Below are positions 2,265-31,555 of a DNA stretch of 34,155 nt, piece after piece. Both the position numbers and the translations under genes were made by a program. Under the pieces are notes generated by a model that worked only from the letters and a program-made list of their open reading frames with translations, was not told where the DNA came from and did no database searches. Source of the stretch: Oscillatoria salina IIICB1 (GTDB lineage: Bacteria; Cyanobacteriota; Cyanobacteriia; Cyanobacteriales; SIO1D9); the NCBI RefSeq assembly GCF_020144665.1, contig NZ_JAAHBQ010000064.1, positions 1 through 34,155 of the forward strand. The letters run 5' to 3'. Within the stretch, counting starts at the first letter, position 1. Each line of letters opens with the position of its first letter.

Positions 2265-2270
2265 ATATTT

Positions 2271-4299: not shown

Positions 4300-7200
4300 A
4301 TGTGGGAATTCTTAAAAACCATCTTTTCTCCAAGTCAATATATGCCGCACGGTTCTTGCTACTTGTGGCAGACCAAGCTTGTGTGGTTTCACGTTCTGAG
4401 CGACGGTTTGATTGCTCTAGCTTACTACTCAATTCCCTTACTATTAATTTACTTTATCCGCAAGCGAGGAGATTTGCCCTTTAGAGGTATCTTTCTTTTA
4501 TTCAGTACATTTATTATAGCTTGTGGGACAACCCACTTAATGGAAATTTGGACGCTTTGGTATCCAGCCTACTGGCTTTCCGGGGCGTTAAAAGCATTGA
4601 CAGCATTGATTTCTCTCTATACTGCCTGTAGTTTAGTTTCACTTATTCCCCAAGCCCTAGCTTTGTCAAGTCCCACACTTTTAGAAACAGTCAACCAAAG
4701 ACTTAAACAAGAAGTAGACCAAAGAATACAAGCAGAGAATATTCTCAAAAATATTCTTGCGGGAACTGCTTCAGTAACGGGAGAAGAATTTTTCTCAGCT
4801 TTAGTGCAGCATTTAGGCGAAGCGCTAGAAGTACGTCATGCTTTTATCAGCGAAACCGTAGCTAACCAACCAAAAAAACTAAAAACTCTAGCATTTTGGG
4901 CAAATGGCAACTGGCGAGAAAACATGGAATATCCTTACAAAGGAACTCCCTGCGAGCCAGTAATTAAAGAAGCGCAGATGAAATTTTATCCTCAGAAAGT
5001 GCAAGAACTATTTCCCGAAGCATTAGCCTTAAAAGCGATGACAGCAGAGTGTTACTTAGGCTTACCTTTACTAAACAAAGAACAACGAGTAATTGGCACA
5101 CTCTGTATCAACAGCGATCGCCCTTTGAAAAACGAGGAAAACGCCAAAGCAATTATGAGCGTATTTGCTGCCAGAGCCGCCGCCGAAATCCAGCGTCAGC
5201 AAGCAGAAAGAGCTTTGCGTCAGGCTTACGAAGAATTAGAGTTGCGAGTAGAAGAACGCACCGCCGAATTAATTAAAGCCAACACCGCCCTGGAGAACCA
5301 AATTCAAGAAAAAAATGCAGTCGAAGCCATATTACTCAAAAGCGAAGCTCGTTTGCGCGTACAACAATATGGATTAGTAACTTTAGCTAAAAGCAAAAAC
5401 TTATATCAAGGAAATCTCGAACTAGCATTAAAAGAAATTACCCAAATAGCCAGTCGTATTCTTCATGTAGAAAGAGCAAGTATTTGGTTTTACAATCAAG
5501 ATAAATCAGCGATCTCCTGTAGTGACTTATATGAGTTGACAGCTAACCGACACAGCCAGGGAATAACCCTGTTTGTGAAGGACTATCCGAGTTATTTTCA
5601 AGCCTTAGACGAAAATCGGGCGATCGCCGCCAGTGATGCTCGCCACGATCCCCGCACGAGCGAATTTAGTAAATCATATTTAATTCCCCTGGGAATTGTC
5701 TCGATGTTAGACATTCCTATTCATTTTCAAGGAGAAGCGATCGGAGTAATTTGTTTAGAGCAGACGGGAAAAATTAGACATTGGGCAACCGAAGATCAGA
5801 ACTTTGCCAACTATTTAGCACATATGGCAGCCTTAGCGATGGAATCGCGCGATCGCCGTATCGCAGAAACAGCTTTACATCAGAGTGTCGAAAGAGAAAA
5901 AGCGATCGCGAGAATTATTCAAAGGATGCGTCAATCTTTAGAGCTAGAAAAAATCTTTAGCTCGACTACTGAAGAGTTACGACAAGCCTTAAACTGCGAT
6001 CGGGCGATCGTTTATCGCTTTCAACCAGACTGGAGTGGAGAATTTGTCGCTGAATCGGTAGCTGAAGGCTGGACTTCCTTAGTCGAAGCACAAACTAACT
6101 ACTCCTCTGTTCAAGGAGTAATTGTCAACGAAGATAGTTGTCAAGTCAAAACCTGGATCGACTTAAAAAATCCGATCCCCGATACCGACACTTATCTTCA
6201 AGAAACTCAAGGTGGTGCTTACAGTCGTGGCATAACTTACCTGAGCGTCGAAGACATTTACCAAGCTAATTTTGATTCCTGCTATCTAGAACGTTTAGAA
6301 CAATTTCAAGCAAAAGCTTACCTAATCGTACCCATTTTTTGTGGCAATCAACTTTGGGGATTACTAGCAACTTATCAAAATTCTTCTGCCCGTCAGTGGC
6401 AAGAAGCAGAAATCAGAATGTTAATACAAATTGGTACTCAATTAGGAGTTGCCGTACAACAAGCAGAATTGCTCAAACGCACCCAACAGCAAACCCTCGA
6501 ACTTCAAAAAGCCAAAGAAATCGCTGATTCTGCTAACCGCGCCAAAAGCGAATTTCTTGCCAACATGAGCCATGAATTGAGAACTCCACTCAACGCAATT
6601 TTAGGTTTCAGTCAACTGATGAGTCGCGATTCCTACCTCAACCAAGAGCAGAAGCAATACTTAAAAACTATTAATAACAGTGGCGAACACTTATTAACCC
6701 TAATTAACGACATTTTAGAAATGTCTAAAATCGAAGCCGGACGAGTTACTTTGAACGAAAATACTTTCGATCTTTATAAACTGCTCGACAGTATCGAAGA
6801 AATGCTCGGACTAAAAGCTAGGTCGAAAAATCTTAAACTAACTTTCACTAAAAATTTTGATGTTCCCTCATACATCAAAACTGACGAAAGTAAACTACGC
6901 CAAGTTTTAATTAACCTGATCGGTAACGCAATTAAGTTTACCGAATCCGGCAGCGTGACTTTAAAAGTAGAAAAATTGCCAGTCAGGAGTCAAAATTCAG
7001 AAAATTGTCAGAATTCAACTAACAACCAACAACTAAAACTATTATTTTCGGTTATTGATACCGGCTTGGGTATTGCCGAACAAGAGTTAGAGCAATTATT
7101 TAAACCTTTTACCCAGACGGCAACGGGATTAAAATCTGGTCAAGGTACGGGTTTAGGCTTACCAATTTCACAAAAATTCGTCCAATTAATGGGCGGAGAA

Positions 7201-8076
7201 ATCTTAGTAAAATCTCAGGTAGGTAAGGGGAGTACGTTCAATTTTGAAATTCGAGCTAAGGAGGTTCGCGAATCTAAGGATTGCCAAGTTAATCAGTTAC
7301 CGAAAAAAGTTATTGCTCTCGCTCCTAACCAACCAAAATATCGAATTTTAGTAGCAGAAGATAAGCCAAGCAATCGCTTAATTTTGGTTAAATTACTATC
7401 TTCTCTTGGATTTAGCATTGAAGTAGCCCAAAATGGTCAAGAAGCAATTCAATTATGGTCAACTTGGCAACCAGATCTAATTTTAATGGACATCAAAATG
7501 CCCGTAATGAATGGGTACGATGCCATGAAACAGATTAGATCTTACGAAGAAGCAGCCAACCAGAAAAAGAAAGAAACTGAGTACCAATTAAGTCAAGAAG
7601 GTAAGGCATTAACTATCCTCTCACTACCAATTAAAAATCGAGTTGCTATTATTGCCATAACCGCCAACGCTTTTGAAGAAGATCGACACAAACTTTTGTC
7701 CGATGGTTGTGATGACTTTATTCGCAAACCTTACAAAGAAGAAGAACTTTTGAGCAAGATTGCTAAACATTTGCCAGTGGAATATATATATGAAAAAACT
7801 AATACCGAGGAACAAGAAACTTTGCCTAATAACAGTAAGGAGAATAACTGTGAGTTTAATTTAGATGCCACAGCCTTGAGAGTAATGCCTGATGAATGGA
7901 TAGCTTCTTTAGAAAAAGCTGCCGCTCAAGGTAGTGATATTTTAATCTTCAAATTAATGGAAGAAATTCCGGAAGATTATACCGAATTAGCTAATGCTCT
8001 CAGCGAGTTAGTAGATAACTTTCAGTTCGAGCAAGTCTTAAAATTAACTGAAAAAAGCAGTAAAAATTTGAACTAA
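4300..8076 (+). CDS. Ethylene-receptor-like hybrid histidine kinase with three GAF domains
   Basis: 1258 residues. Residues about 15-125 form a three-helix membrane domain matching plant ETR1: [15 protein letters not shown] gives D35 and Y42, and ACGTTH gives C75 and H79. These correspond to ETR1 D25, Y32, C65 and H69, the last two being the copper ligands. GAF1 (about 150-305, with the GTPC motif), a coiled coil (305-355), GAF2 (365-525) and GAF3 (543-725) follow. GAF3 resembles cyanobacteriochrome domains and has Cys661 at the canonical bilin position, followed by Tyr instead of the usual His. HisKA has the phospho-acceptor His758 in [13 protein letters not shown]. The HATPase has the GTGLGL box near 950. 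A REC domain carries Asp1064 and has an extra loop of about 30 residues at 1080-1113. A 75-residue tail ends the protein. The family precedent is Synechocystis Slr1212 (SynEtr1/UirS). Ethylene binding and bilin binding are inferences. Confidence 0.9.
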
Positions 8077-8419: not shown

Positions 8420-11400
8420 GTGAAGAGTAAAATTGCTTTGGCTAAAGATCGCAAGCGAACAGAAGCACAATTAGAAAGTCGCGAACAAGCTCTGCAATTA
8501 ATAGTTGAGGGAACGGCTTCAGCGACAGGAAACGAGTTTTTTCGCACCTGTGTCCGCTATCTCGCCCAAGTTTTGCAAGTTCGCTACGCCTTTGTCACCA
8601 GAATGGCTGATGATTCTCGAAGCAAACTGCGTACTTTAGCTTTTTGGGATGGGATTGATTTTGTCAAAAACTTTGAGTACGAGCTTCCAGGTACTCCCTG
8701 CGAAAAAGTATTGTGGGGCAAAATTTGTTTTTATCCAGAAAACGTTCAAGCTTTGTTTCCTAAAGATCGGGATTTAGTTGAGTTAGAGGTAGAGAGTTAC
8801 TTAGCAATTCCTTTAATCTCCTCAGAGGGAGAAGTTATCGGTCATCTAGCAGTAATGGACGTGGAGCCGATGATTAAAGATTTTAGCAAAGAATCAATTG
8901 TGAAAATTTTTGCGGCTCGTGCTAGTGCCGAATTAGAACGCTTGCAAGCAGACGAATTATTGGCAAGACGGGCAGAAATGGATAAACTACTTAGCCAAAT
9001 TTCCCGTAAGTTTATCGACGAAGAGATTAATATAGCAATAAATTTTACCTTGCGAACAGTTGGCGAATTGTTGCAGAGCGAGCGAATGTATTTTGTGCGC
9101 TACCTCGAGGAGCAAAACTCGTTTAGTATGACTCACGAATGGTGCGCTAGTGGTATCGAGCCATCTTGGGACAAATTTAAAGAGATCCCTGTGGAAAGTA
9201 ATAACTCAGTTCACCAACAAATTCTAGCTGGTGAAAATGTACAATTTTCTTGTCCAAGTCAGCGTGCGCCAGTAGCTTTCGATTGTGAAACAGCTAATTA
9301 CCCGCTTCGGTGTTTGAAGTTGGGGGTTACTGTGCCGATACTACGTTCTAGTAAAGTTGTTGGTTTCCTGGGTGTGGATATTGCTAATTGCGCCAAGGTA
9401 TGGACTCCAGAAGAAATAGACTGGCTAAAATTAGTAGGTGAATTTATTGCGATCGGACAAGCGCGAAGCAAAGCACAAGAAGCATTAGAACGTAGCAACG
9501 CTCGTTTTCAAAACTTAGCCGAGCATCTACCGGGGATGATTTATCAATACAAATTGTACCCCGACGGTTCCCAAGAATTTCCCTATGTCAGTCCTGGTTG
9601 CCGAGAAATTTATGGCATTGAAGCAGAAGCAGTAATGCAAAATTCGAGTTTACTTTGGGAAGTCGTGCATCCTGAAGATTTTGACCCTCTAGTCAACTCG
9701 ATCGCGGTTTCGGCTCGCACGTTACAACCTTGGAAAGCTAGCTGGCGGATTGTGGTTAACTCTCAAACTAAGTGGTTACAAGGGTGTTCGCGCCCAGAAA
9801 AGCAAGCTGATGGTAGCGTGGTTTGGGATGGAGTCGTTACCGATATCAGCGATCGCTTTTCCGCCGCAGAAGTCTTGCGCGAAACGGCTCAATGGCAAAA
9901 AACTTTGTTTCGAGTTATTCAAAGAATGCGTCAGACGCTAGACATCGAAACAATTTTTGGAGCAACCACCGAAGAACTGCGACAGGTGTTAAACTGCGAT
10001 CGCGTCTTGATTTATCGTTTTCAACCAGAAGGAATTGAGGAAATTGTTTCTGAGTCGGTAGCGCCAGGATGGATACCGATGTTAGAAACGAATTCTAACG
10101 ATTCGCCAACAGATAGGGATGCTTACTTACAAAACACTTCAATTGGTGTTGATAGTCTCGGAGCAAGTTACCTCTGCGTAGAAGATATTTATCAGGCAGG
10201 TTTCGATCGTTCTTACCTGGAATATTTGGAGCGTTTACAGGCACAAGCTTATATTATCGTACCAATTTTCTGTGGCTATAAACTCTGGGGATTACTCGCA
10301 ATTTATCAAAATAGCGGTTCTCGTCACTGGACAAAAGCCGAAACCAAGTTCGCCATCCAAATTGGTTCTCAGTTAGGAGTAGCCGTACAACAGGCAGAAC
10401 TGCTCAGACACACCCAACAGCAAGCTTTAGAATTGCAACAAGCCAAAGAAACTGCCGACGCTGCTAACCGGGCGAAAAGTGAATTTCTCGCTCACATGAG
10501 TCACGAATTGAGAACGCCCCTCAACGCGATTTTAGGCTTTACCCAACTGATGAACCGCGATTGGGCAAAGCCCAGCATCCTCAACGGCTTTCACGATCTT
10601 TGTTCAACTCATCAACAATATCTGGAAATTATTAGTAATAGTGGCGAACATCTCCTCAGCTTAATCAACGATATTTTGGCAATGTCCAAAATTGAAGCCG
10701 GACGAGTTACGCTCAGTAAAAATGCTTTTGACTTGTATCACTTCCTCGATACTCTTGAAGAAATGTTTTCCTACAAAGCACAATCTCAAGGATTGGAATT
10801 AATCTTTATACGCACCCCTCAAGTGCCTCAATATATCAAAACTGACGAAAGGAAACTGCGTCAAGTGTTGATTAACTTGATCGGTAATGGAATTAAGTTT
10901 ACCGAAGTTGGGAGCGTGACCTTGAAAGTAGAAACCCTACCTGACACCTCACAATCAGACTTTGAACTTAAAGAGCAAACTCTCTTATTTTCAGTTATTG
11001 ACACCGGACCCGGTATTGCTCCCGAAGAGTTAGAGCTTTTATTTAAACCTTTTACTCAAACCGAGACAGGCTTAAAATCCGGTCAAGGTACGGGTTTGGG
11101 TTTGCCAATTTCGCAAAAATTCGTTCAACTAATGGGCGGCGAAATTGAGGTTAGTAGCACTCCCAATGGAGGAACCAAGTTTAGCTTTGCAATTCAGGTA
11201 AGCCGAATCGCAGAAATAACAGTTACAAACACGCAACCAATCAACCAAAAAATTATCAGTCTTGCTCCTAATCAAGAAAAATGTCGCATCCTAGTAGTAG
11301 AGGATAATTCTGCCAATCGTTTTTTGTTAGTCAAGCTACTGGAGAATTTAGGTTTTGAGGTACGGGAAGCGGAAAATGGTCAACAAGCTTTAGCTATATG

Positions 11401-11923
11401 GTCGAGTTGGGATGCACAACTAATTTTGATGGATATGCAAATGCCAATAATGAACGGTTATGAAGCGATCGCCAAAATTCGCAGTTGTTCAAAAGGTCAG
11501 GCGATCGCAATTATAGCTTTAAGTGCTAGTGCTTTCGACGAACAGCGACAGGAAATTTTAGCCGCCGGATGCGATGATTTAGTACACAAACCTTTTCGTC
11601 AAGAGGAGCTATTGGCAAAAATTGCTCAATATCTCGATCTCAGTTATATCTATGCTTCAGAAACCGCACCCAAAGGCAAAATCAATACTCCAACTCAAGC
11701 GAAAGTGAAATTGAGCGAGATGGCGTTAAAGATTGCTCAAATGCCGCAAGAATGGATAGCCCAGTTAAATTATGCTGCTGCTCAAGGCAGCGATCTGCTA
11801 ATCTTACAATTGCTCGAGCAAATTCAGGCAGAAAATGCTGATTTAGCTGTTTTTCTGAAAGAGCTGGCGGAAAATTTCCAGTTCGAGCAGATTGTCGAGT
11901 TAATTCAACTAACTCAGAAGTAA
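8420..11923 (+). CDS. Soluble hybrid histidine kinase, GAF-GAF-PAS-GAF-HK-REC
   Basis: 1167 residues, GTG start with a strong ribosome binding site. Domains in order: a short coiled start, GAF1 (20-185, with GTPC, clearly paralogous to GAF1 of the upstream kinase), GAF2 (188-350), PAS (360-475), GAF3 (490-665), HisKA with His695, HATPase (806-930, GTGLGL box near 890), REC (955-1075) with Asp1005, and a C-terminal tail like that of the neighbour. GAF3 aligns well with the upstream protein's cyanobacteriochrome-like GAF3 but has Ser598 where that one has Cys661, so covalent bilin attachment there is unlikely. There are no membrane segments. From the histidine onward the two kinases are nearly collinear, which points to a tandem duplication followed by change of the input end. 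Input signal unknown; autophosphorylation and phosphotransfer follow from the family. Confidence 0.9.
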
Positions 11924-11976: not shown

Positions 11977-13770
11977 ATGAATAGCGATCGCACAGTCATT
12001 ATTAAAGAAGATATCTTGATCGTTGACGATACTCTCGAAAATTTGCGCTTGCTCTCGACGATGCTCCTCAAACAAGGGTATAACGTCCGCAAGGCTTTAA
12101 ACGGACAGATGGCTCTTAAGGCTGTGGAAACTGTGGTACCGGATCTGATTTTGTTGGATATCATGATGCCAGATATGGATGGCTATCAAGTTTGTCAGCG
12201 CTTGAAACAGCAGAGTTCCACTGCTGAGATTCCGGTTATTTTTCTCAGCGCTCTCAATGAAGTTTTTGATAAGGTCAAGGCGTTTGAGGTTGGCGGTGTA
12301 GATTATATTACTAAGCCGTATCAGTTTGAAGAAGTTTTGATTCGCATTCAAAATCAATTAGCGCTGAAGACAGCAGAGCGAGAAATTCTTCAACTCAATA
12401 GTCAACTAGAAAAGCGGGTGCAAGAGCGTACTCAGCAGTTAGAAATCGCCAATGCTCGTTTGCTAGAAATGGCACTTCACGATTCCCTAACTGGGTTGCC
12501 GAATCGGGCTTTATTTATGAAACGCTTGCAGTCAGCTCTCCAAGAGGTAAAGGCAAACAAATCATCTCAATTTGCAGTATTATTTTTGGATTGCGATCGC
12601 TTTAAAGTAATTAATGACTCTTTGGGACATCTCGTTGGCGATGAATTGCTGATCGCGATCGCCGCTCGTCTTCAGTCTTGTTTGAGCAATGGAGATACTC
12701 TCGCTCGTTTGGGTGGCGATGAATTTGCAATTCTCTTTACAGAAATAGAAAACATTAGCAATGCTATTCAAATGGCAACTCGGATCTTAGATTTGTTTTC
12801 TCACCCTTTTCAATTGCAAAGAAGAGAAGTTTTTATTAATGCTAGTATCGGGATTACTTTAGGTAATTGCGACTACGAACAACCAGAACATCTCTTGCGG
12901 GATGCTGACACCGCCATGTATCGCGCTAAAGCCCTAGGTAAAGGTCAATTTCACGTTTTTGACCCTGAAATGCACAGCGTAGCTTTGCGCTTATTGCAAC
13001 TCGAAAACGATTTGCGCCGCGCGATCGAACGCCAGGAATTTGTTCTCCATTATCAACCAATTATTGACTTGAATCAAGGAAAAATTTCTGGCTTTGAAGC
13101 CTTGGTGCGCTGGCAACATCCGACTCGCGGTTTGGTCTCTCCTGGATTGTTTATTCCTATCGCAGAAGAAACTGGTTTAATTAACCCGATCGGTCATTGG
13201 GTAATGAAGCAAGCTTGTCGGCAGCTTATTTCTTGGCAACAACAAAAATTGGTAAACGATAATCTAAGTATCAGTGTCAATCTTTCTGTGCGGCAGTTTT
13301 CCCAACCCAATTTAATTGAACAAATCGATCGCGTTTTGGCAGAAACTCTACTTAATCCCCAATGTTTAAAGTTGGAAATTACCGAAAGTGCCATTATGGA
13401 TAATAGCCAATCGGCGGCAACTATTCTCGAAGAATTAAGAAAACGACAAATTCACTTGAGTATCGATGATTTTGGGACAGGTTATTCTTCTTTGAGTTAC
13501 TTACATTCCTTTCGCGTCGATCTCCTCAAAATTGATAAATCTTTCGTTCAACGTCTGAATGGAACTTCATCTAACCTCGGTTTAATCCCCGCCATTATCA
13601 GTATTGCACAGACAATGGGCATGAAGGCGATCGCTGAAGGAATTGAAACTACTCAACAGTTAATTCAACTGAAAAAATTAAATTGTGATTTTGGTCAGGG
13701 ATATTTATTCTCCGAACCTTTGAACAGTAAAAATGTGGTAGAATTAATAACTTCCGATCCTCACTGGTAA
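11977..13770 (+). CDS. Response regulator REC-GGDEF-EAL, cyclic-di-GMP enzyme
   Basis: 597 residues. REC (8-125) has the phospho-acceptor Asp61 in LILLDIMMPDMDGY. A coiled linker (130-165) leads to the GGDEF domain with an intact LARLGGDEF (GGDEF at 246-250), then the EAL domain with E374 in GFEALVRWQHP. The EAL part keeps the metal and catalytic residues: YQPI, the N of SVNLS, EITES, DDFGTG, the K of LLKID, AEGIE and GQGY. Both synthesis and breakdown of cyclic-di-GMP are therefore possible. The inhibitory I-site position reads SNGD and lacks the arginine of RxxD, so product inhibition at that site is not expected. The gene sits 53 bp behind the second hybrid kinase, which makes that kinase a likely phosphate source. 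Its REC domain is close in sequence to that of the next gene. Confidence 0.92.
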   Translation: MNSDRTVIIKEDILIVDDTLENLRLLSTMLLKQGYNVRKALNGQMALKAVETVVPDLILLDIMMPDMDGYQVCQRLKQQSSTAEIPVIFLSALNEVFDKVKAFEVGGVDYITKPYQFEEVLIRIQNQLALKTAEREILQLNSQLEKRVQERTQQLEIANARLLEMALHDSLTGLPNRALFMKRLQSALQEVKANKSSQFAVLFLDCDRFKVINDSLGHLVGDELLIAIAARLQSCLSNGDTLARLGGDEFAILFTEIENISNAIQMATRILDLFSHPFQLQRREVFINASIGITLGNCDYEQPEHLLRDADTAMYRAKALGKGQFHVFDPEMHSVALRLLQLENDLRRAIERQEFVLHYQPIIDLNQGKISGFEALVRWQHPTRGLVSPGLFIPIAEETGLINPIGHWVMKQACRQLISWQQQKLVNDNLSISVNLSVRQFSQPNLIEQIDRVLAETLLNPQCLKLEITESAIMDNSQSAATILEELRKRQIHLSIDDFGTGYSSLSYLHSFRVDLLKIDKSFVQRLNGTSSNLGLIPAIISIAQTMGMKAIAEGIETTQQLIQLKKLNCDFGQGYLFSEPLNSKNVVELITSDPHW

Positions 13771-13853
13771 CCCCAAAAACTTTCCTGGGTAATTCCCGAT
13801 CGTGAAAATTTTCTTAGCTAATCAAAATTTTTAAGCATCAAATGTAAACCCTA

Positions 13854-15176
13854 ATGAATAACGACTCTCCTAATAATCCTCAAAAAAATGATATCCTTGT
13901 GGTTGATGATACCCCAGATAATATCCGTTTTTTATCAACAATGTTAACAGAACAAGGATATAATGTCCGCAAAGCAATTAACGGACAAATGGCTTTAACC
14001 GCAGTTCAAGCTGTACTTCCTGACTTGATTTTGTTGGATATTAATATGCCTGGTCTTGATGGATATGAGGTTTGCAAACAACTGAAACAAAATGAAAAAA
14101 CTAACACTGTACCTGTAATTTTTTTGAGTGCTTTAGATGATACAGAAGATAAAATTAAAGCTTTTAAAGTAGGCGGTGTTGATTACATAACTAAACCCTT
14201 TCACTTTGAAGAAGTTCTCGCCAGAATTAAAAATCAACTGACAATTAAACAGCTTCAATCTCAATTAAAAGAACAAAATCAACAACTTAAAGAAACTTTA
14301 AATGAGCTCAAATCTGCTCAGGCTCAACTAATACATAAAGAAAAAATGGTTAGTTTGGGTAAGTTGGTTGCTGGAATTTCCCATCAACTTAATAATCCTA
14401 TTAGTTTTATCGCCGGAAATCTTGATTTTACACGCAATTATATTCAAGATTTGCTACAATTAATCAAGATTTATCAGCAAGAATATCCTCAACCTACAGA
14501 AATAATTAAAGAAGCAATTCAAGAGATAGATTTAGATTTTATCAGTGCAGATTTAGAAAAAGTTCTCGGTTCTATTCAAGCTGGATCGGAGCGGATTTCC
14601 ACTATTATTCTTGCTTTACGCATTTTTTCCCGTTTAAATGAATCTGAAATTAAATCTGTTGATATTCATCAGGGAATTGATAGTAGTTTATTGCTGTTAC
14701 AGCACAGAATTAATCAACAAGATAAAGATTTGGAAATTGAAGTTATTAAAAATTATAGCGAGCTGCCAAAAGTTACTTGTTATGCTAGTCAACTAAACCA
14801 AGTGTTTCTTAATTTGTTGAATAATGCTGTTGACGCTTTAGAATCAAAATTTACAAAAGGTTTTCCTGAAACTACTAAACCAACCATTTGGATCGATACC
14901 GAGTTAGACGATCGCACTAGTGTTCTTGTCCGGATCAAAGACAATGGTTGTGGTATTAGTGAGGAAGTCAAAGCCCATTTATTTGAACCATTTTTTACTA
15001 CCCAACCTGGAGGTAAAGGAAGTGGTTTAGGTTTATTAACCAGTTATCAAATTGTGGTGGAAAAGCATAACGGAAAGTTGAGTTTTAATTCTCAAGTTGG
15101 ACAAGGAGCAGAATTTATTGTCGAAATTCCGATCGAGCTTGTCAAATTATCATCATCGCGATCGCCGAACCCGTAA
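13854..15176 (+). CDS. REC-histidine kinase fusion
   Basis: 440 residues. An N-terminal REC domain (10-130) with Asp62 (LILLDINMPGLDGY) is followed by a coiled coil (132-165). A kinase core comes next, with a variant H-box ISHQLNNPISFI (His177) and a HATPase domain (about 275-430) with DNGCGI and GKGSGLGL boxes. The H-box is of the HxxxNNP type common in cyanobacterial kinases, and the core resembles that of the three-PAS kinase at 18216. There is no periplasmic or membrane part, so the kinase is expected to be controlled by phosphorylation of its own receiver. It lies 83 bp behind the REC-GGDEF-EAL gene and shares its REC type, suggesting both receive from the same upstream kinase. Confidence 0.9.
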   Translation: MNNDSPNNPQKNDILVVDDTPDNIRFLSTMLTEQGYNVRKAINGQMALTAVQAVLPDLILLDINMPGLDGYEVCKQLKQNEKTNTVPVIFLSALDDTEDKIKAFKVGGVDYITKPFHFEEVLARIKNQLTIKQLQSQLKEQNQQLKETLNELKSAQAQLIHKEKMVSLGKLVAGISHQLNNPISFIAGNLDFTRNYIQDLLQLIKIYQQEYPQPTEIIKEAIQEIDLDFISADLEKVLGSIQAGSERISTIILALRIFSRLNESEIKSVDIHQGIDSSLLLLQHRINQQDKDLEIEVIKNYSELPKVTCYASQLNQVFLNLLNNAVDALESKFTKGFPETTKPTIWIDTELDDRTSVLVRIKDNGCGISEEVKAHLFEPFFTTQPGGKGSGLGLLTSYQIVVEKHNGKLSFNSQVGQGAEFIVEIPIELVKLSSSRSPNP

Positions 15177-20585: not shown

Positions 20586-22174
20586 TAACTTAATTCAGCG
20601 ACAATTTGGTTGTTGAGGAGAGTTTCATTAGTTAATAAATCCTCGACATTAATTCGCAAAGAACGTTGTTCGTCAACCCAAAATGAAACCTTGACGCGAT
20701 CGCTGCCTGGGTGTCCTAATGGGGTAAGCTGGGCAATAGTTCTTGCACCGTTGCGATCGTTTAAAGCTTGTACTGTAGTTGAACCTGTATTTACTGTACG
20801 AGTAATTAAGCGAGATCCATCGAAATAAACTTCTGTGGCGGCGGTTTCTGCGCCTAATTCACCGATAATTAATTCAATACTGGGCTGATTTTCTACGGAT
20901 GCGCCTAATTTCAATTCTACGGGATTAAGCATCGGATAAGGTTGTCCGGCTTTGACAATCGGATGCCAACTGTGGCATTTTTGACGGTGATTCCAGTAGC
21001 GAATGCCGTAACTGTGGTAAAGAAAGTCTTTGAGTTGAAAGCCTTGGGCTAATTGTAATGCGCCGTGAGCGATCGCCTCGAAGGGTTTTTGACATTTCAC
21101 TCGCTTCATGTCATATTGCTCTACCCAATCTTGGACTGCGGGAATTTGGACAGTACCGCCTACTAATAATACTGCGTCAATATCAGCCGCTTCAATTCCT
21201 TGCCGCCTTCCTTGCTGCAAAACTGCTGTCATCAACCCGTCAAGTTGGTCAAAAAATTGTCTTTCTTGGAGAATCTGATTAAACTCATCTCGATTTAATT
21301 CTAACTCGTAGGTTTCTAATGTCTCATCATTAAAATAAATCTCACTCGCTTGTGGTTGCGAAGATAATTTTATTTTCAATCTTTCCGCTAAACGTAGGGT
21401 TAAAGGAGATTTGGCTAAACCTTGTTTCTCAGCAAAATAATCTACTAACCAATTATCTAAATCCGAACCGCCTAAATTGGCTCCGGCTTTGGCTAAAACA
21501 CGCGCTGTTTTCGGTCGTTGATTGGAATTTTCACCTAATAATTTTTCTCCCCATTTGAGGATAAAACCTGTTGGTTTCTGTTGATTTTTGGCACCTAAAT
21601 CCACGCGAACTAAGGATAAATCTAGGGTTCCGCCACCAAAATCTATTACTAACAAAACTTCGCCTTCCGCAGCATATCCTAAAGCGGCGGCGGTTGGTTC
21701 GTCGAGGATTCGTACTTGTTCTACTGGTAAAGATTGACAGACTTTTGTTAACCAGTGACGATAAGCTTCAAAACTGTCTATGGGAACTGTTAAAAACAGA
21801 GAATCTGAGGATTCTTGTGTTTGGAGTTTACTAATGATTTCTGCGAGAAACCATTCTCCTACTTGCTCAAATGTTACCGTTTTTTCGTCTAATTCTGGTA
21901 AAAAACCTTGAATTTCTGCACCGATACCTCGTTTAAAGCTGCGGAAAAAACGAGGATCGTTAGCTAAATCGAGTCCGCGATCGCGCACCGTTTGCCCAAT
22001 TATAACTTCACCTACCGAGGCATCCTCCACATAAGCCAAACTCGGAATTAACGGTGGATTCTTGGCTATCTGCTGAGATATTCCCGGTAAACTTAGGGTT
22101 TCCGGTTGTTGTGTCGCTGCATTCCAACGGGCGATTACTGTGTTGCTCGTACCAAAATCAATTGCAATTGTCAT
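20585..22174 (-). CDS. Hsp70 (DnaK-like) family protein
   Basis: 529 residues from ATG 22174. The nucleotide-binding domain is clear: MTIAIDFGTSNTVI (phosphate-1), EPTAAALGY at 159-167, LVIDFGGGTLDLS with DFGGGT at 178-183 (phosphate-2), and VLLVGGTVQIPAV (adenosine motif). The substrate-binding part is only about 150 residues, so the alpha-helical lid of true DnaK (about 638 residues) is shortened or absent. Proteins of this kind are common in cyanobacteria as extra Hsp70-like ATPases of unknown client. A GTG at 22228 would add 18 residues with no domain; the ATG matches the conserved family start and is preferred. A hairpin separates it from the small gene upstream. A partial copy of its 3' end lies just downstream. 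Confidence 0.87.
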   Translation of the reverse strand: MTIAIDFGTSNTVIARWNAATQQPETLSLPGISQQIAKNPPLIPSLAYVEDASVGEVIIGQTVRDRGLDLANDPRFFRSFKRGIGAEIQGFLPELDEKTVTFEQVGEWFLAEIISKLQTQESSDSLFLTVPIDSFEAYRHWLTKVCQSLPVEQVRILDEPTAAALGYAAEGEVLLVIDFGGGTLDLSLVRVDLGAKNQQKPTGFILKWGEKLLGENSNQRPKTARVLAKAGANLGGSDLDNWLVDYFAEKQGLAKSPLTLRLAERLKIKLSSQPQASEIYFNDETLETYELELNRDEFNQILQERQFFDQLDGLMTAVLQQGRRQGIEAADIDAVLLVGGTVQIPAVQDWVEQYDMKRVKCQKPFEAIAHGALQLAQGFQLKDFLYHSYGIRYWNHRQKCHSWHPIVKAGQPYPMLNPVELKLGASVENQPSIELIIGELGAETAATEVYFDGSRLITRTVNTGSTTVQALNDRNGARTIAQLTPLGHPGSDRVKVSFWVDEQRSLRINVEDLLTNETLLNNQIVAELS

Positions 22175-22247
22175 TAACCAGTTCTTGCTTATCGTCTGAG
22201 GTGTTTTTTCATTTTGCCTTATTTGCACGAGTTTTGAGCAAAATTTT

Positions 22248-22308: not shown

Positions 22309-22653
22309 TTAAGCTATCTGATATGAGAGCAATTTCTGTCTGGTTTTCGCAAAGAAGTTGTTTTTCTTCCTGCTAGAGGATTCTTCCTCCTTCGTTTCCT
22401 CGGCTTCGGCGGCTAATACGAGCATTTTATCGCTGCTGCGTACCACCATTTCGCCTCGGTTGACTGCTTCTCGCCATTGACGACCAATTTTCCAAGCGTG
22501 AAACTTCGCTGGATTCCAACGAGGGTTGACTGGATACCCAGCAAAACCAGCACGTAACGCTGCTTGGTTGGTACTAGGTATGGGGGTACGCACTAAGATT
22601 CCTTCTGCCAAGTCAACCACGTAGATATTTTGGTTGTTAATTGCCTTTGACAT
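22309..22653 (-). CDS. Small conserved cyanobacterial protein, function unknown
   Basis: 114 residues. The first about 75 look like a compact domain: NIYVVDLAEGILVRTPIP, then a basic/aromatic stretch with GYPVNPRWNPAKFHAWK and GRQWREAV. The last about 35 residues are highly charged (EAEETKEEESSSRKK) and probably disordered. There is no signal peptide or membrane segment. The start is ATG 22653: on the minus strand AGGGGG lies eight bases before it. The in-frame GTG at 22662 overlaps that ribosome binding site and is unlikely to be used. It is upstream of the Hsp70-family gene on the same strand and may share a transcript if the intervening hairpin is read through. I do not recognise the family. 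Confidence 0.75.
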   Translation of the reverse strand: MSKAINNQNIYVVDLAEGILVRTPIPSTNQAALRAGFAGYPVNPRWNPAKFHAWKIGRQWREAVNRGEMVVRSSDKMLVLAAEAEETKEEESSSRKKNNFFAKTRQKLLSYQIA

Positions 22654-22662
22654 GGATTTCAC

Positions 22663-25023: not shown

Positions 25024-25881
25024 TTATCGTTGCATCCACTGACGAGTTCCCCAAGATTGACAAGCAAAAGCGGCAATTTTCGCCGAATTTGACAGCGCCT
25101 CAATAAAATTTGTTTGGAGAATATAATGGCAAAAAGCACCGTGAAAAATATCCCCAGCGCCGAGAGTATCTACTGCGGTAATTTGCGGTACTGCCAATTC
25201 TCCCCTTTCACCTTCACTGAAATATTTAATCGGTTTTTCTCCATTTGTTAAAGCAATCTGAGTAATTTCACTACTATGAAGATAAGCAAAAACCTCAGCT
25301 TGCGATTCACAACCAGGAGGGAAAAAATTAGCCGAAACTATCGCATAATCAGCCCAACAGAGAACTTTTTCAAACCCCGGTTTCCAACTTCCACCATCCA
25401 CAACAACCGGAATCTTTTTTGCTTTCGCTTGTTTCGCCAAATATTCACTAACAATCATTTGATGTCCATCGATTAAAACCACATCCACATCATCTAAGAT
25501 ATCTGCGGGAATCGCGGAAACATCAGCTTGAGATTTAACCGCATTGACAGAAATCACAGCGCGATCGCCAGTAAATGCAGTACTAATAGTCGAAGACACA
25601 GGCGGAGAATCCACGCGATCTTTATCCAGATCGATCGCATTCACTTGACAAGCTTCTAAATCAGCTCGAATTAAATTACTAATCGGATGTTTACCAATCG
25701 CTCCCAAGATAGATGCTTGATTTTTAAAATAACTAAAAGTAACCGCCGCATTAGTAGCCGGACCTCCAGCCGCTATAGTGTCATTAGAAGCAACAACCTT
25801 TTGATTTCTTTCAGGAAATTCATCAGTTAGATACAGAATATCTAAAGTAACCAATCCGACAAACAAACCATTTTTCATCAT
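25024..25881 (-). CDS. PfkB-family sugar or nucleoside kinase
   Basis: 285 residues, typical ribokinase/PfkB length. The glycine signature AAGGPATNAAV lies near residue 37. The C-terminal signature DTLGAGDIFHGAF holds the catalytic-base aspartate (about D244) and the anion hole GAGD. GLVTLDILYL near the start is also typical. It phosphorylates a sugar or nucleoside hydroxyl using ATP; the substrate cannot be named. Two adjacent ATGs (25881 and 25878) are possible, preceded by AGAGGAG on the minus strand at a rather long spacing. It leads the cysQ-like gene and diverges from the ethylene-sensor gene at 25924 with only 42 bp between start codons. Confidence 0.87.
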   Translation of the reverse strand: MMKNGLFVGLVTLDILYLTDEFPERNQKVVASNDTIAAGGPATNAAVTFSYFKNQASILGAIGKHPISNLIRADLEACQVNAIDLDKDRVDSPPVSSTISTAFTGDRAVISVNAVKSQADVSAIPADILDDVDVVLIDGHQMIVSEYLAKQAKAKKIPVVVDGGSWKPGFEKVLCWADYAIVSANFFPPGCESQAEVFAYLHSSEITQIALTNGEKPIKYFSEGERGELAVPQITAVDTLGAGDIFHGAFCHYILQTNFIEALSNSAKIAAFACQSWGTRQWMQR

Positions 25882-25923: not shown

Positions 25924-28164
25924 ATGATAGAATTTTTCCCAAATCTAGCCCTTTGGTCAAAATTATTTCCCATAGGATTATCTCACCCATCGGGATTTAT
26001 GCCTCACGGAACTTGCTATCTTTGGAAACCAGAATTAGTAATTTTACATAGTGCTTCCGACTTACTCACTGGATTTGCTTACTATTCCATTCCAGCCATG
26101 CTCATTTACTTCGTTCGCAAGCGTGAAGATTTGCCTTTCCCGTGGATTTTTTGGATGTTTGGTGCTTTTATCATCTTTTGCGGTACAACTCACTTAGCAG
26201 AAGTTTGGACGCTATGGTATCCTAGCTACTGGCTATCTGGAGCCTTAAAATTAGCCACAGCAGGCATTTCACTCTATACTGCCATCGAACTCTTCCCCTT
26301 AATTCCTAAAGCCTTAGAATTACCTAGTCCCGCACAACTAGAAGCAACCAACCGCAAATTAGAGCAGGAAATCAGTGAAAGAAAACAAGCAGAAGCCGCA
26401 TTGCAAAACAGCGAAGCACGCTTACGCTCAATTTTTGAAGCCGCAGCGATCGGTATTACTGTAACTGACAATCAAGGAATTTTACTAACCGCAAATCCCG
26501 CTTTCAGAAAAATTTTAGGTTATAGTGAAAAACAATTAACTCAAATGCGTTTTAGCGATCTCACCCATCCAGAGGATAGAGAAGTCAATTGGGAACTTTT
26601 TCAAGAATTATTTACTGGCAAACGGGAATTATACCACATAGAAAAGCGTTTTCTTCGCAATACCCAAGAGATAGTTTGGGCTAATCTTACTGTTTCTCTA
26701 CTGCGAGATCCAGATAACCAGCCCCAATTCGCGATCGCCATGATTGAAGACATTACCGAACGCAAAAAAACGGAAAAAGCACTACTTCAATATCACCAAC
26801 ATCTCGAAGAATTAGTAGGAGCGCGTACTACTGAACTTACCTTAGCTAACGAACAACTTTCTTGGCAAGCTAGCCACGATTCGCTTACTGGATTAGTCAA
26901 TCGGAACGAGTTTGAAAAACAGTTACAAGATGCTATTTTGAGTTGCAAATCCCTCCAACAATCTCACAGTCTTCTCTATCTAGATTTAGACAGATTTAAA
27001 ATTGTCAACGATACCTGCGGTCATATTGCTGGCGATGAATTATTACGTCAAGTTAGTAATATTTTAGCAAATAACTGCCGCAAATCCGATCTGCTCGCTC
27101 GCTTAGGAGGCGATGAATTTGCTTTGTTACTTTACAATTCTACTTTAGAAGGAGGAGAGTCGATCGCGCAAAATATTCTCGAAAAAATTCAAGAGTTTCG
27201 CTTTGTTTGGCAAAATCAATCTTTCACTATTGGTGTTAGCATCGGCTTGGTTCTGATTGACTGTATTAGCTTTAATGTTGAAGAAGTTATTAATGCTGCT
27301 GATGCTGCTTGTTATGCTGCTAAAAGTTACGGACGGAATCGAATTTACATTTATCAAAAAAATGATAAAGACTTGTCACAAGCTAAAGCAGATATACGAT
27401 GGGTAAAGCAAATCGAACGGGCAATCATTGAAAATAAATTCCAACTTTATATCCAACAAATTGCTTGTTTGCAAAAATCTTCTTTAGCAAATGAAGACCA
27501 TTACGAGGTGTTGTTACGATTGTCAGATGAAACAGGTAAGATTGTTTCTCCAATGGCGTTTATCCCCGCCGCCGAACGCTATAATTTAATGGGATTAATC
27601 GATCGTTGGGTGATTGGTAACTTTTTTGCTTATTTAGCTCAATATTCGGCTAAATTGCTTTCTCAAGAAAAGAAGTTGGCAAGTATCTATACAATTAATT
27701 TATCTGGAGAAAGTATTAATGACGATCGCTTGGTAGAATTTCTCAAACAACAGTTCCAAATTTATCAAATACCACCGCAGCTAATTTGCTTTGAAATTAC
27801 TGAAACTGTAGCCGTATCTAATCTCACTAAAGCTAGACAAATGATTCAGGAAATTAGTAAACTTGGTTGTTGCTTTGCTTTAGATGATTTTGGTAGTGGT
27901 ATGTCTTCTTTTGGTTATCTTAAATATTTGCCTGTAAAATATTTAAAAATTGACGGACAGTTTATTAAAGATATAGTAAACGATCCTCTCGATCGCGCGA
28001 TCGTCGAAGCAATTAATAATATTGGTCATGTGGTGGGAATGAAAACTATTGGTGAGTTTGTTAGTGATGAAAATATTTTGCAAATTATTGGAGAATTGGG
28101 TGTAGATTATGCTCAAGGTTATGCAGTTAGTAAACCTCATCCTTTATGGGAAATTGAGGATTAG
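25924..28164 (+). CDS. Ethylene-receptor-like diguanylate cyclase/phosphodiesterase (PAS-GGDEF-EAL)
   Basis: 746 residues. Residues about 26-140 are an ETR1-type membrane domain with D46, Y53, C86 and H90 (FCGTTH). These have the same spacing as the kinase at 4300 and as ETR1, and [15 protein letters not shown] is shared almost exactly with that kinase. Then come a short coiled coil, PAS (165-285), GGDEF with the active motif at 395-399 and an I-site RKSD at 386-389, and an EAL-type domain whose motif reads EVL (E528). The phosphodiesterase residues are kept: the Q of YIQQI, the N of INLSG, EITET, DDFGSG, the K of LKIDG, the E of IGEFV and AQGY. Both activities are therefore plausible. Inferred role: coupling ethylene (or another copper-site ligand) to cyclic-di-GMP level. 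Confidence 0.9.
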   Translation: MIEFFPNLALWSKLFPIGLSHPSGFMPHGTCYLWKPELVILHSASDLLTGFAYYSIPAMLIYFVRKREDLPFPWIFWMFGAFIIFCGTTHLAEVWTLWYPSYWLSGALKLATAGISLYTAIELFPLIPKALELPSPAQLEATNRKLEQEISERKQAEAALQNSEARLRSIFEAAAIGITVTDNQGILLTANPAFRKILGYSEKQLTQMRFSDLTHPEDREVNWELFQELFTGKRELYHIEKRFLRNTQEIVWANLTVSLLRDPDNQPQFAIAMIEDITERKKTEKALLQYHQHLEELVGARTTELTLANEQLSWQASHDSLTGLVNRNEFEKQLQDAILSCKSLQQSHSLLYLDLDRFKIVNDTCGHIAGDELLRQVSNILANNCRKSDLLARLGGDEFALLLYNSTLEGGESIAQNILEKIQEFRFVWQNQSFTIGVSIGLVLIDCISFNVEEVINAADAACYAAKSYGRNRIYIYQKNDKDLSQAKADIRWVKQIERAIIENKFQLYIQQIACLQKSSLANEDHYEVLLRLSDETGKIVSPMAFIPAAERYNLMGLIDRWVIGNFFAYLAQYSAKLLSQEKKLASIYTINLSGESINDDRLVEFLKQQFQIYQIPPQLICFEITETVAVSNLTKARQMIQEISKLGCCFALDDFGSGMSSFGYLKYLPVKYLKIDGQFIKDIVNDPLDRAIVEAINNIGHVVGMKTIGEFVSDENILQIIGELGVDYAQGYAVSKPHPLWEIED

Positions 28165-28498: not shown

Positions 28499-29335
28499 AT
28501 GAACGATAAAGCTGGAAATCTTTATGTAGTAGGAACACCGATTGGTAATCTAGAAGATATTACTTTTCGGGCTATACGAATTTTACAAGAAGTGGATATA
28601 ATTGCGGCTGAAGATACGCGCCATACAGGTAAATTATTACAACATTTTCAGATTATTACTCCACAAATTAGTTATCATAAATATAATTGCCAACAACGTC
28701 AAGAAGAATTGTTGACTCGGTTGCTGGAAGGGGATAAAATTGCTTTAGTTACTGATGCAGGAATGCCCTCGATTTCCGATCCGGGTTGTGAGTTAGTCGC
28801 TGCTTGTTTAAAGCAGGGAATAAAAGTGATTCCTTTACCTGGTGCAAATGCGGCGGTAACTGCTTTATCGGTAGCAGGAATGAATGGATCTGAGTTTGTG
28901 TTTGCAGGTTTTCTTCCTACTAAGAATAAAGAGCGACAAACTCATTTGGAAACTCTCAAAAATGAAACTCGCACGATAATATTTTATGAAGCACCTCATC
29001 GACTGGTAACAACACTGCAAGATTTAGCGAAGTTTGTTGGGGAAAATAGAGAAATTTTTCTGGGGAGAGAGTTGACAAAATTACATGAAGAGTGTATAAA
29101 GATGAAACTAGGGGAGGCGATCGCGTTTTACAGGGAAAAAACTCCTAAAGGTGAATTTACCTTAGTGATGGCAGGAGCAGCAACCGCAGAAAAGCTCACA
29201 ATCTCCGAAAGTGAGTTGAAAGTAGAGTTACAGCAAATGTTAGCCCAAGGAATGACGCGATCGCAAGCTGCTCGTCAACTAGCTCAAGTAACTAATCTCT
29301 CCCGTCGGCAAATTTATCAACTGGATTTAGATTAA
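28499..29335 (+). CDS. rsmI: 16S rRNA 2'-O-ribose C1402 methyltransferase
   Basis: 278 residues, full family length. Family signatures are plain: LYVVGTPIGNLEDITFRA at the N-terminus, AAEDTRHTGKLL, LVTDAGMPSISDPG, and VIPLPGANAAVTAL. This is a tetrapyrrole-methylase-fold enzyme that uses SAM to methylate the 2'-O of C1402 in 16S rRNA, tuning the decoding centre. It stands alone, 334 bp after the ethylene-sensor gene and about 400 bp before the exported-protein operon. Confidence 0.96.
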   Translation: MNDKAGNLYVVGTPIGNLEDITFRAIRILQEVDIIAAEDTRHTGKLLQHFQIITPQISYHKYNCQQRQEELLTRLLEGDKIALVTDAGMPSISDPGCELVAACLKQGIKVIPLPGANAAVTALSVAGMNGSEFVFAGFLPTKNKERQTHLETLKNETRTIIFYEAPHRLVTTLQDLAKFVGENREIFLGRELTKLHEECIKMKLGEAIAFYREKTPKGEFTLVMAGAATAEKLTISESELKVELQQMLAQGMTRSQAARQLAQVTNLSRRQIYQLDLD

Positions 29336-29584: not shown

Positions 29585-29725
29585 TGCTAATTTTTGTTAA
29601 ACCAACGAAAATAGTTTCCATGCAAGCAAAGCTTCTCAATTCTGCCTTTTGAATTTTAGCTCCTGATGCGGAAAAAGATAATTAAGTAGTGAAGCATACA
29701 TCTCAAGAGATGTTGGTGTGAGACC

Positions 29726-29734
29726 AGAGGAGGT
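29726..29734 (+). promoter_or_regulatory. Strong Shine-Dalgarno site deciding a GTG start
   Basis: AGAGGAGGT ends four bases before GTG 29739. An upstream in-frame GTG at 29718 would put this perfect ribosome binding site inside the coding region, so 29739 is the start. Confidence 0.8.
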
Positions 29735-29738
29735 CAAA

Positions 29739-31109
29739 GTGCGCCTTTCAGGTATTGCTCTCGGTAGTTTAACAGCCTTGGTAGCGGCTAATTTTCCTGC
29801 TATTGCAAGCGAAATGACGACTTGGGAAAATCAGTCATCTAAATCACGAGAATTTCCTAGCGAAATAAATTTTTCAGTTGGAGAAATACCAGCAGTTGAA
29901 AAAGTAAACTCGGTTACATCTGACGATTCTGTCACAGTGACAGACTTATCATCAGAGTTAACCACAACTTCCTTAGAAATAAGCCCAAAAACTAACAACA
30001 GCCAAACGGAGAAAACTAATCTTAGTCAGAGATATTTAGCCACAACCAACCCAGCTAAATTAACTCCCCAAACCAAGTCAGAAGTAATCGAATTTGGACA
30101 AGAAATTCCTAAAAAAAACCCAGCAACTCAACCTGTTGCTGAAATTACAATCTCACAAGTAGCTCAAACTCCTTTTACTGAAGTTCCCGCGATAGAAGCA
30201 ATTACTTCGACAGTTAACCAATCAAGTGAAACAAATGTGGTTAACAGTCGTGGAGAAGTAGAAATGCCAACCCAAACAGTTAGCCAAGAAATAACTAACG
30301 AACCAGCACAAAATTCAAATTGTGCGGCACAAAATCCAGACAATCGAGAAGTATCTAATCAAGGAGCAGAATTATTAGCTCAAACTCGTAATTGTCCCCG
30401 TCCCCAACCAATTCAACCTTTAGTTTTACCAGATATTACGTTTGAAGAAGCGGGTTCATCTCCAGCTTTGAGCATTTACATTCCCGTTGGTTTTGGTGCA
30501 GATGGTGGCACATTATTTGTGAGTGGAACTTACCAAGCTAGCGTCCGCGACGATGATGGCGATGTCGCTACATTTGGCGCAGGTTTAGGTTTGGGAAATG
30601 CTAGAGAAGCAGTGGGAGTAGAACTATCTTATGCTTTTGAAACCGAAGATACAGATGACTTTGGTGCAGGGGGTTTTAATGCGAAAGTGCATCGTCAGTT
30701 AGGACGAGATTTGTCAGTTGCTGTCGGTTGGAATGGTTTTGCAAATATCGGTGATAATGATTTCGACCATTCAGTTTATGGAGTAGCAACGACCGTTTTA
30801 CGCACCAGAGAATCAATTAACGATCCTTTCAGTCGGGTTGCTTTAACACTTGGTGTTGGTACGGGACAATTTAGCGAACATGACGATGACGATGATGATG
30901 GCGTAAATGTGTTTGGTAATGTGGCTATTCGCGTCAATCGTCCGATTAGTTTGATTACAGAATGGTCGGGAGACGATTTAGGTTTTGGTTTATCGATCGC
31001 GCCGTTTAAAAATATACCTTTTGTAATTACTCCCGCAGTTCGTGATGTAATTGGTGAAGGTGACGAACCGAGATTTGTTTTAGGTGCTGGTACGGCAATT
31101 AAGTTTTAG
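29739..31109 (+). CDS. Exported protein with probable outer-membrane beta-barrel
   Basis: 456 residues from GTG 29739. The N-terminus MRLSGIALGSLTALVAAN with PAIASE is a signal peptide, cleaved near AIA-SE. Residues about 30-225 are rich in Ser, Thr, Asn, Gln and Glu and look disordered. A C-x30-C pair lies at the end of this region (NSNCAAQ and TRNCPRP). Residues about 240-456 alternate polar and hydrophobic residues (LSIYIPVGFG, TLFVSGTYQ, VGVELSYAF, LSVAVGWNGF, RVALTLGVGTG, VFGNVAIRV), like beta-hairpins of a small barrel. The protein ends in phenylalanine (GTAIKF), the classical outer-membrane insertion signal. A run of six aspartates (EHDDDDDDG) lies in one probable loop. First gene of a three-gene operon. 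Function unknown. Confidence 0.8.
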   Translation: MRLSGIALGSLTALVAANFPAIASEMTTWENQSSKSREFPSEINFSVGEIPAVEKVNSVTSDDSVTVTDLSSELTTTSLEISPKTNNSQTEKTNLSQRYLATTNPAKLTPQTKSEVIEFGQEIPKKNPATQPVAEITISQVAQTPFTEVPAIEAITSTVNQSSETNVVNSRGEVEMPTQTVSQEITNEPAQNSNCAAQNPDNREVSNQGAELLAQTRNCPRPQPIQPLVLPDITFEEAGSSPALSIYIPVGFGADGGTLFVSGTYQASVRDDDGDVATFGAGLGLGNAREAVGVELSYAFETEDTDDFGAGGFNAKVHRQLGRDLSVAVGWNGFANIGDNDFDHSVYGVATTVLRTRESINDPFSRVALTLGVGTGQFSEHDDDDDDGVNVFGNVAIRVNRPISLITEWSGDDLGFGLSIAPFKNIPFVITPAVRDVIGEGDEPRFVLGAGTAIKF

Positions 31110-31110
31110 T

Positions 31111-31117
31111 GAGGAGG
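31111..31117 (+). promoter_or_regulatory. Shine-Dalgarno site immediately after the stop codon
   Basis: GAGGAGG starts two bases after the preceding TAG stop and lies nine bases before ATG 31127. It contains the codons of a longer reading from GTG 31109, which is therefore unlikely to be the start. Confidence 0.8.
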
Positions 31118-31126
31118 TTGGTAAAA

Positions 31127-31555
31127 ATGGAGAAAATCAAGCGTTTAAGTTGGGTTTTAGGCTTATCAATGGTTGCAGTCAGCTTAACAGTTAGTCCGGC
31201 GAAAGCTGATGGTAGTTATTCTGATATTACTGGGACAAATATTTGGAACAATACCGCACCCATATTTGAAGGTTCCGAAGGCGGAATAGACCCGGATTTA
31301 GTCGCCAGAGTCGAACGATTAAACGAAGAATCAGCCGCAGCATTCCAAGCTTGTAACGCAGCGATCGCGCAAGTCGAACAACAACTTCCTCCCTCCGGAC
31401 CGAGGAGATTCGCTCGACAACCGCAACCCGGTCAATCTCCCGGCGTTCCCGTCGCTTGTCAGCGACTGAATGAATTAAGAGTAGAAGTTGAAAATGTGCG
31501 TCTAGAGTTGCAAGAATTGGCAGGAACCGTCCAATCCGGTTACGCTACTTGGTAA
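31127..31555 (+). CDS. Small exported protein, function unknown
   Basis: 142 residues. The signal peptide MEKIKRLSWVLGLSMVAVS has a cleavage site at AKA-DG (about residue 26). The mature part begins with YSDITGTNIWNNTAP and then forms a predicted helical section with two cysteines (FQACNAAI and VACQRLNEL) separated by a Pro/Gln/Arg-rich insert. The end (VRLELQELAGTVQ) looks like a short coiled coil. It starts 17 bp after the barrel protein's stop and is translationally well placed, so it probably works with that protein at the outer membrane or in the periplasm. No family recognised. Confidence 0.8.
   Translation: MEKIKRLSWVLGLSMVAVSLTVSPAKADGSYSDITGTNIWNNTAPIFEGSEGGIDPDLVARVERLNEESAAAFQACNAAIAQVEQQLPPSGPRRFARQPQPGQSPGVPVACQRLNELRVEVENVRLELQELAGTVQSGYATW

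Follow-up and report, generated by a model that had tools for sequence, protein, structure and literature searches.

A single gene of Oscillatoria salina IIICB1 joins an ethylene-receptor input domain to a PAS domain and to both kinds of cyclic di-GMP (c-di-GMP) domain, GGDEF and EAL. We consider it probable (roughly 0.6) that the encoded fusion protein is a one-component sensor in which a membrane domain with copper-dependent ethylene binding is linked to c-di-GMP turnover. From the sequence, its best reading is that of an RbdA-like enzyme equipped with an ethylene-receptor input, by which c-di-GMP would be set within one protein. A wider picture can be drawn more tentatively, as its parts taken together fall just short of even odds: a conserved cyanobacterial one-protein ethylene-to-c-di-GMP switch, formed once from an RbdA-like enzyme and a receptor input, maintained between pfkB and rsmI in five families beside a two-component route, with one branch that has no hydrolysis and, within it, a sub-branch that has no copper cysteine, giving a synthesis-only or ligand-free form. 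If this is true, the same genome has two routes by which ethylene feeds into c-di-GMP. Throughout, "the window" denotes the whole stretch of 34,155 nucleotides that was analysed; loci, genomes and families carry our L, G and f numbers.

Domains and functional sites of the fusion protein

The gene at 25924-28164 is one open frame on the forward strand that encodes 746 amino acids without an internal stop. According to Pfam, its product has the domain order ETR1_N-PAS-GGDEF-EAL with all matches above the cut-offs. The ethylene-receptor domain ETR1_N (PF25487) covers residues 38-133 (E 8.9e-42) and scores 141.7 bits against a curated cut-off of 27. It is followed by PAS at residues 166-277 (E 1e-9 to 2e-14, depending on the PAS model), GGDEF at 316-473 (E 9.6e-43) and EAL at 496-738 (E 1.5e-57). 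The gene, its domains and its two conserved flanks are as follows.

25024..25881, minus strand: pfkB-family kinase, divergent left neighbour and conserved flank (Pfam and relatives' loci)
25924..28164, plus strand: ETR1_N-PAS-GGDEF-EAL gene, 746 aa, single open frame
26035..26322, plus strand: ETR1_N domain (D46, Y53, I56, P57, I83, C86, H90; Pfam PF25487)
26419..26754, plus strand: PAS domain (Pfam; matches to solved structures weak, best E 3.7e-07)
26869..27342, plus strand: GGDEF domain, I-site RKSD at 27079-27090 and GGDEF motif at 27106-27120
27409..28137, plus strand: EAL domain, motif EVL at 27505-27513, examined catalytic positions all present
28499..29335, plus strand: rsmI, 16S rRNA cytidine 2'-O-methyltransferase, conserved right flank (relatives' loci)

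Chance domain matches were ruled out, with E values below 1e-40 for each of ETR1_N, GGDEF and EAL and of 2e-14 for PAS. A frame fusion or assembly artefact was likewise dismissed on account of the stop-free frame and of identical domains at the same locus in 13 other genomes, and synteny and the tree described below speak against an isolated, one-off domain shuffle. Pfam detected neither HisKA nor HATPase in the protein, which therefore does not have the histidine-kinase-like output of the characterised ethylene receptors; since its output is GGDEF-EAL, we refer to an "ethylene-receptor input" and not to a classical receptor kinase. In a structure model of the fusion (4 rows; mean pLDDT 67.5) the GGDEF and EAL folds are good and the membrane part is middling, with pLDDT below 50 over most of the PAS domain and the second linker. 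The conclusions presented here were drawn independently of this model.

The seven ETR1_N positions that bind ethylene are assigned here after the ETR1 literature. These positions read DYIPICH in the fusion protein (D46, Y53, I56, P57, I83, C86 and H90). Seven residues are described as required for ethylene binding. The copper-site residues D46, Y53, C86 and H90, which the earlier note had recognised ahead of the PAS domain, are thus all in place. Among the 154 ETR1_N domains aligned, all seven positions are found in 106 and D, Y, C and H in 130. The same seven residues occur in an ETR1_N kinase of Azospirillum brasilense Sp 7 (L200, on a plasmid record), the ETR1_N domain of which is 53% identical to that of the fusion and which is taken to be AzoEtr1. 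When expressed in yeast, residues 1-130 of AzoEtr1, in a construct derived from strain Sp245, bind ethylene, and Sp7 cells with a disrupted gene no longer do so (PMC11819568). A comparison of the ETR1_N part with solved structures gave no match at E 0.01. With these residues conserved, the ETR1_N domain of the fusion is predicted to bind copper and ethylene.

The GGDEF motif (residues 395-399), the metal aspartate and the I-site RKSD (386-389) are intact, in agreement with what had been noted before. All examined catalytic positions of the EAL domain are present as well, namely E528 (in the motif EVL), R532, N592, E624, D654/D655, K675, D677, E711 and Q731, so that the fusion protein carries the catalytic residues of both enzymes. 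E711 presumably corresponds to RocR E352, judging by residue numbering and the alignment ranges. Among solved structures RbdA (5xgb) comes closest, matching residues 311-741 with E 7e-137; the tandem of GGDEF and EAL is homologous to that of RbdA, an RbdA-like dual-enzyme architecture. RbdA has PAS ahead of GGDEF and EAL and is active as a phosphodiesterase (PMC10294637), and GTP bound to its GGDEF domain stimulates c-di-GMP hydrolysis (PMC10294637, PMC10874727). PA0285, with the motif ESL and without an I-site, is an active phosphodiesterase that displayed no cyclase activity in vitro (PMC10874727). As RbdA, which reads ELL, and PA0285 are phosphodiesterases, the EVL of the fusion is not disabling as such, and with the catalytic positions present we reject a degenerate EAL domain for this protein. 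To judge from these residues, the GGDEF and EAL modules are apparently enzymatically competent. The note had also proposed that c-di-GMP could be set in one protein without a phosphorelay. With a receptor input fused directly to apparently competent GGDEF and EAL domains, a phosphorelay would be unnecessary within the fusion protein; this part of the proposal stands, but a likely two-component arrangement from ethylene to c-di-GMP is also present about 10 kb upstream.

The conserved pfkB/rsmI locus

A check of how far the domain order has spread placed ETR1_N-PAS-GGDEF-EAL genes next to pfkB and rsmI in five cyanobacterial families, with 14 genomes altogether, including that of the window (f1). 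The gene is present in this organism as the earlier note had it, but a restriction to this organism proved too narrow. Both flanks recur in G226, G038 and G181 (f11), in G019, G202 and G187 (f20), in G025 (f26) and in G031, G178, G192, G221 and G236 (f32); for G248 (f32) the pfkB flank alone was seen within the fetched stretch. With 1206-1219 aa, the proteins of f20 exceed the others in length, and they contain a second PAS match. The rsmI loci were inspected from the other side as well, using the best 30 of 78 matches in 80 genomes of the same order, which is not a random draw. A GGDEF-EAL gene adjoins rsmI in five of these 30, window included, and all five belong to the 14; pfkB lies within about 0.5 kb of rsmI with no GGDEF-EAL gene between them in 13 and about 1.1 kb away in two, while the short flank of the remaining 10 shows no pfkB. 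In family f7, an ETR1_N-GGDEF gene is found beyond pfkB on its opposite side in G164 (L309), and at the same place in G130 (L308) there are two frames, ETR1_N of 212 aa and GGDEF of 209 aa.

The output modules were compared in a tree of 42 rows, comprising the 14 orthologs, three other ETR fusions, the REC-GGDEF-EAL regulator of the window and the 24 best other matches. The 14 orthologs make up one side of a branch with bootstrap 94 and SH-aLRT 98. The row of the window is long and its placement inside the ortholog group is weak (81/73); in an earlier quick tree of 36 rows, seven orthologs were in the starred group and the window stood just outside. Two further ETR1_N-GGDEF-EAL proteins (L045, L051) group with the regulator of the window in another lineage and a third (L142) stands apart, which indicates that such fusions arose more than once. 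Free trees of the ETR half are poorly resolved: one, with 14 fusions of every kind (among them five of the 14 orthologs), requires 13 changes, and a second requires three changes for the 14 orthologs and does not gather them together. When the 14 orthologs were held together in a tree with 30 kinase-type frames (drawn at random from L037-L116 and the window) and eight others, p-AU was 0.80 and the likelihood was 15 units above that of the free quick tree. Identical domains, a shared locus and a single group in the output-module tree thus define an ortholog group, which the ETR half does not reject.

Within this group, 14/14 proteins have the GGDEF motif together with the metal aspartate and an RxxD I-site, and so they do ExLLR, N, E, DDF, K and Q of the EAL domain. 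Seven (window, f11 and f20) retain the equivalents of D677 and E711, whereas the proteins of f26 and f32 have lost the two. We read the ortholog, on these patterns, as a protein probably centred on diguanylate cyclase, with a phosphodiesterase that appears intact here and dispensable in one branch. The invariant residues of the gas site (14/14) are D, Y, I56 and H; Cys is kept in 11, Ile83 in 10 and Pro57 in eight. The copper cysteine is replaced by Ser in three, Pro57 differs in six and Ile83 in four, and the complete set of seven remains in five (window, G025, G178, G236 and G248). The gas site would accordingly be constrained in most, not all, members, as we read it. Mean identity between families is 65% for both ETR1_N and GGDEF, 58% for EAL, 49% for PAS, and 58% and 51% for the first and second linker, respectively. 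The orthologs with natural losses in the EAL site or of the copper cysteine constitute a ready-made control set.

Among ETR1_N-GGDEF proteins, Ser at the copper cysteine was noted in L082, L303 and L304 (G031, G192 and G221) and Tyr in L114. Ser or Tyr at this position resembles ethylene-blind receptor mutants. Another type of fusion, without an EAL domain, is represented by L114, L136, L098 and L169, in which the C-terminal partner of ETR1_N is a GGDEF variant that reads GGEEI or GGEEM.

Two-component neighbours and the outputs of ETR1_N proteins

Beyond what the earlier note mentioned, the window contains another ETR1_N protein as well as a regulator of REC-GGDEF-EAL type, both in one row of genes on one strand with gaps of about 340, 50 and 80 bp.

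4300..8076, plus strand: second ETR1_N protein of the kinase type, ETR1_N-GAFs-HisKA-HATPase-REC(s)
8420..11923, plus strand: GAF/PAS hybrid histidine kinase with REC
11977..13770, plus strand: REC-GGDEF-EAL response regulator; DibA and Tlr1612 are its closest NCBIfam models, with scores below cut-off
13854..15176, plus strand: REC-histidine kinase

From its gene content, the region 4300-15176 is likely a two-component ethylene-to-c-di-GMP route, in which the ETR1_N kinase at 4300-8076 would, by its position, phosphorylate the REC-GGDEF-EAL regulator. The GGDEF-EAL part of this regulator (11977-13770) belongs to a lineage distinct from that of the fusion. Genome-wide, 32 matches to GGDEF, 17 to EAL, one borderline match to PilZ and six to ETR1_N (two of them in the window) were obtained, along with eight matches to phycobilisome proteins, consistent with a cyanobacterium. 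Elsewhere in the window, ORFs of 566 and 725 aa at 48-3968 have no Pfam match, and two ORFs of 463 and 148 aa at 29718-31555, overlapping by one base, have at most a weak beta-barrel match. A 547-aa protein at 20585-22228 (minus strand) matches only a part of Hsp70/DnaK; its 117-aa neighbour at 22309-22662 (minus strand) falls into no Pfam or NCBIfam family.

For the survey of outputs, 140 ETR1_N loci from genomes and 10 from plasmids were fetched and the two frames of the window added. This gave 154 frames at 153 places (the second frame of L068 is L106), of which 143 are genomic and 10 on plasmids; 18 weak or partial ETR1_N places from a listing of 103 were left out. A histidine kinase is the output of 122 frames, GGDEF with EAL of eight and GGDEF alone of six, while 18 of the 154 have none detected, the detection being by single-sequence phmmer queries from the window, which miss divergent outputs. 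A GGDEF-coding neighbour on the same strand is present in 15 of 150 loci and has a receiver domain in 13 of the 15, compared with about two expected from the GGDEF density of this one genome, a figure to be read with the variation in density and flank lengths and the frequent adjacency of kinase and receiver genes in mind. A diguanylate-cyclase gene is likewise grouped with GeiEtr2 (PMC6682694). The fusions, the GGDEF neighbours and the GeiEtr2 case together indicate that the ethylene-binding domain has repeatedly been tied to c-di-GMP.

Of 19 plasmid records with ETR1_N, 10 were fetched; seven of these 10 carry kinases and none a GGDEF fusion. No output domain was detected in the plasmid frames of Kovacikia and of two Acaryochloris plasmids, the latter frames being short. 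These two (L197 and L198, plasmids of Acaryochloris sp. 'Moss Beach') have kinase-type genes and a receiver-DGC regulator after each ETR1_N frame, and an IS1 transposase gene follows one of them. When the whole fusion protein was used as the query in a contig search, the sole return was a GGDEF-EAL locus of Sulfurovum.

Mechanism, alternatives and known systems

In the mechanism that we propose, the linkers would be helical and the protein dimeric. Cu(I)-ethylene bound between helices 1 and 2 would alter helix packing, and this change would be passed through the linkers and the PAS domain to alter GGDEF dimerisation and EAL release. The common output would be feedback-limited c-di-GMP synthesis, as GGDEF and the I-site are kept in 14/14 orthologs and a single branch shows a decayed EAL site; hydrolysis would be a second activity retained in this species. 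By analogy with Azospirillum brasilense, where ethylene lowered c-di-GMP according to metabolomics (PMC11819568), ethylene might perhaps lower c-di-GMP through the fusion and favour motility. In Synechocystis, ethylene increases phototaxis and biofilm formation alike (PMC11819568), which leaves the sign of the response uncertain.

Several points count against this proposal. Five of the 14 orthologs alone keep the full set of binding residues, seven have lost the equivalents of D677 and E711, the free trees of the ETR half do not bring the orthologs together, and the window is weakly placed within the output-module group. The PAS domain could carry a signal of its own, and an intact GGDEF domain is no proof of synthesis, as the precedents of RbdA and PA0285 illustrate. 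In one alternative reading, ETR1_N is a mere membrane anchor and dimeriser and PAS the real sensor that drives GGDEF-EAL. Among the 29 further top matches of the output module that were fetched, five had ETR1_N and 24 showed none (seven of these frames being cut at the locus edge), so that the module works with other inputs, and the copper cysteine is gone from three orthologs. An anchor would be expected to drift, however, and ETR1_N is as conserved as GGDEF and more so than PAS, whose matches to solved structures are weak; we regard this reading as very improbable. Somewhat less so, though still improbable, is a metal site that senses a cue other than ethylene, such as copper, another small gas or the redox state, and still controls c-di-GMP. 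The uneven retention of Cys, Ile83 and Pro57 beside the invariant D, Y, I56 and H would suit it, as would the six ETR1_N proteins of the genome, a number that exceeds what a single gas signal would seem to require. On the other hand, AzoEtr1 and SynEtr1, bacterial ETR1_N proteins with binding data, bind ethylene (PMC11819568, PMC6682694), and the fusion of the window has all seven binding residues.

A third alternative concerns the output and fits either input. The protein could mainly be a phosphodiesterase like RbdA, its GGDEF domain acting as a GTP-binding activator without net synthesis. That RbdA, whose hydrolysis is stimulated by GTP on GGDEF (PMC10294637, PMC10874727), is the best solved relative argues for this possibility, together with the EAL catalytic positions kept in the fusion. 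It accords poorly with the loss of two EAL positions in 7/14 orthologs in the face of universal conservation of GGDEF and the I-site; moreover, the best NCBIfam match of the fusion is a diguanylate cyclase model, PRK09776, at 557 bits where the cut-off is 1135. We consider a predominant phosphodiesterase unlikely, but not to be dismissed lightly. A one-component ethylene sensor with a c-di-GMP output remains our preferred reading.

Ethylene alters motility and biofilm formation in cyanobacteria, and the pathway from AzoEtr1 to the response is stated to be unknown (both PMC11819568). With the ethylene site and the c-di-GMP enzymes on one membrane protein, a direct link becomes testable in vitro. 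Bacterial proteins with ethylene-binding domains are diverse in their output domains, some of which are absent from plants (PMC7700396). Within the open-access literature covered on ethylene receptors or sensing together with GGDEF, EAL or c-di-GMP, no description of such a fusion was met, and an earlier one may exist outside it; the word "ethylene" is absent from a 2022 census of c-di-GMP sensory inputs (PMC8846402).

Both the input and the output are therefore known, in a combination that we have not seen characterised and to which a conserved locus is added. On the output side, RbdA (PA0861) of Pseudomonas aeruginosa (PDB 5xgb, 5xgd and 5xge) is alike in having PAS ahead of GGDEF-EAL and an EAL motif without A (ELL), but lacks ETR1_N and has an N-terminal sensor of its own. 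The same type of ethylene-binding input is found in SynEtr1/UirS (Slr1212) of Synechocystis and in GeiEtr1 and GeiEtr2 of Geitlerinema (PMC6682694), receptors without GGDEF or EAL whose histidine-kinase output is combined with GAF parts and, for GeiEtr2, with PAS as well. AzoEtr1 resembles the fusion in its ETR1_N domain (53% identity and the same seven residues), but is a PAS-histidine kinase with a receiver-only regulator (PMC11819568). AtETR1 of Arabidopsis shares the input as well and is a kinase-type receptor that signals through CTR1 (PMC7700396). PcrK/PcrR of Xanthomonas campestris links another plant hormone, cytokinin, to c-di-GMP (PMC7700396); unlike the one-protein fusion described here, it does so with a CHASE input, separate proteins and a phosphorelay.
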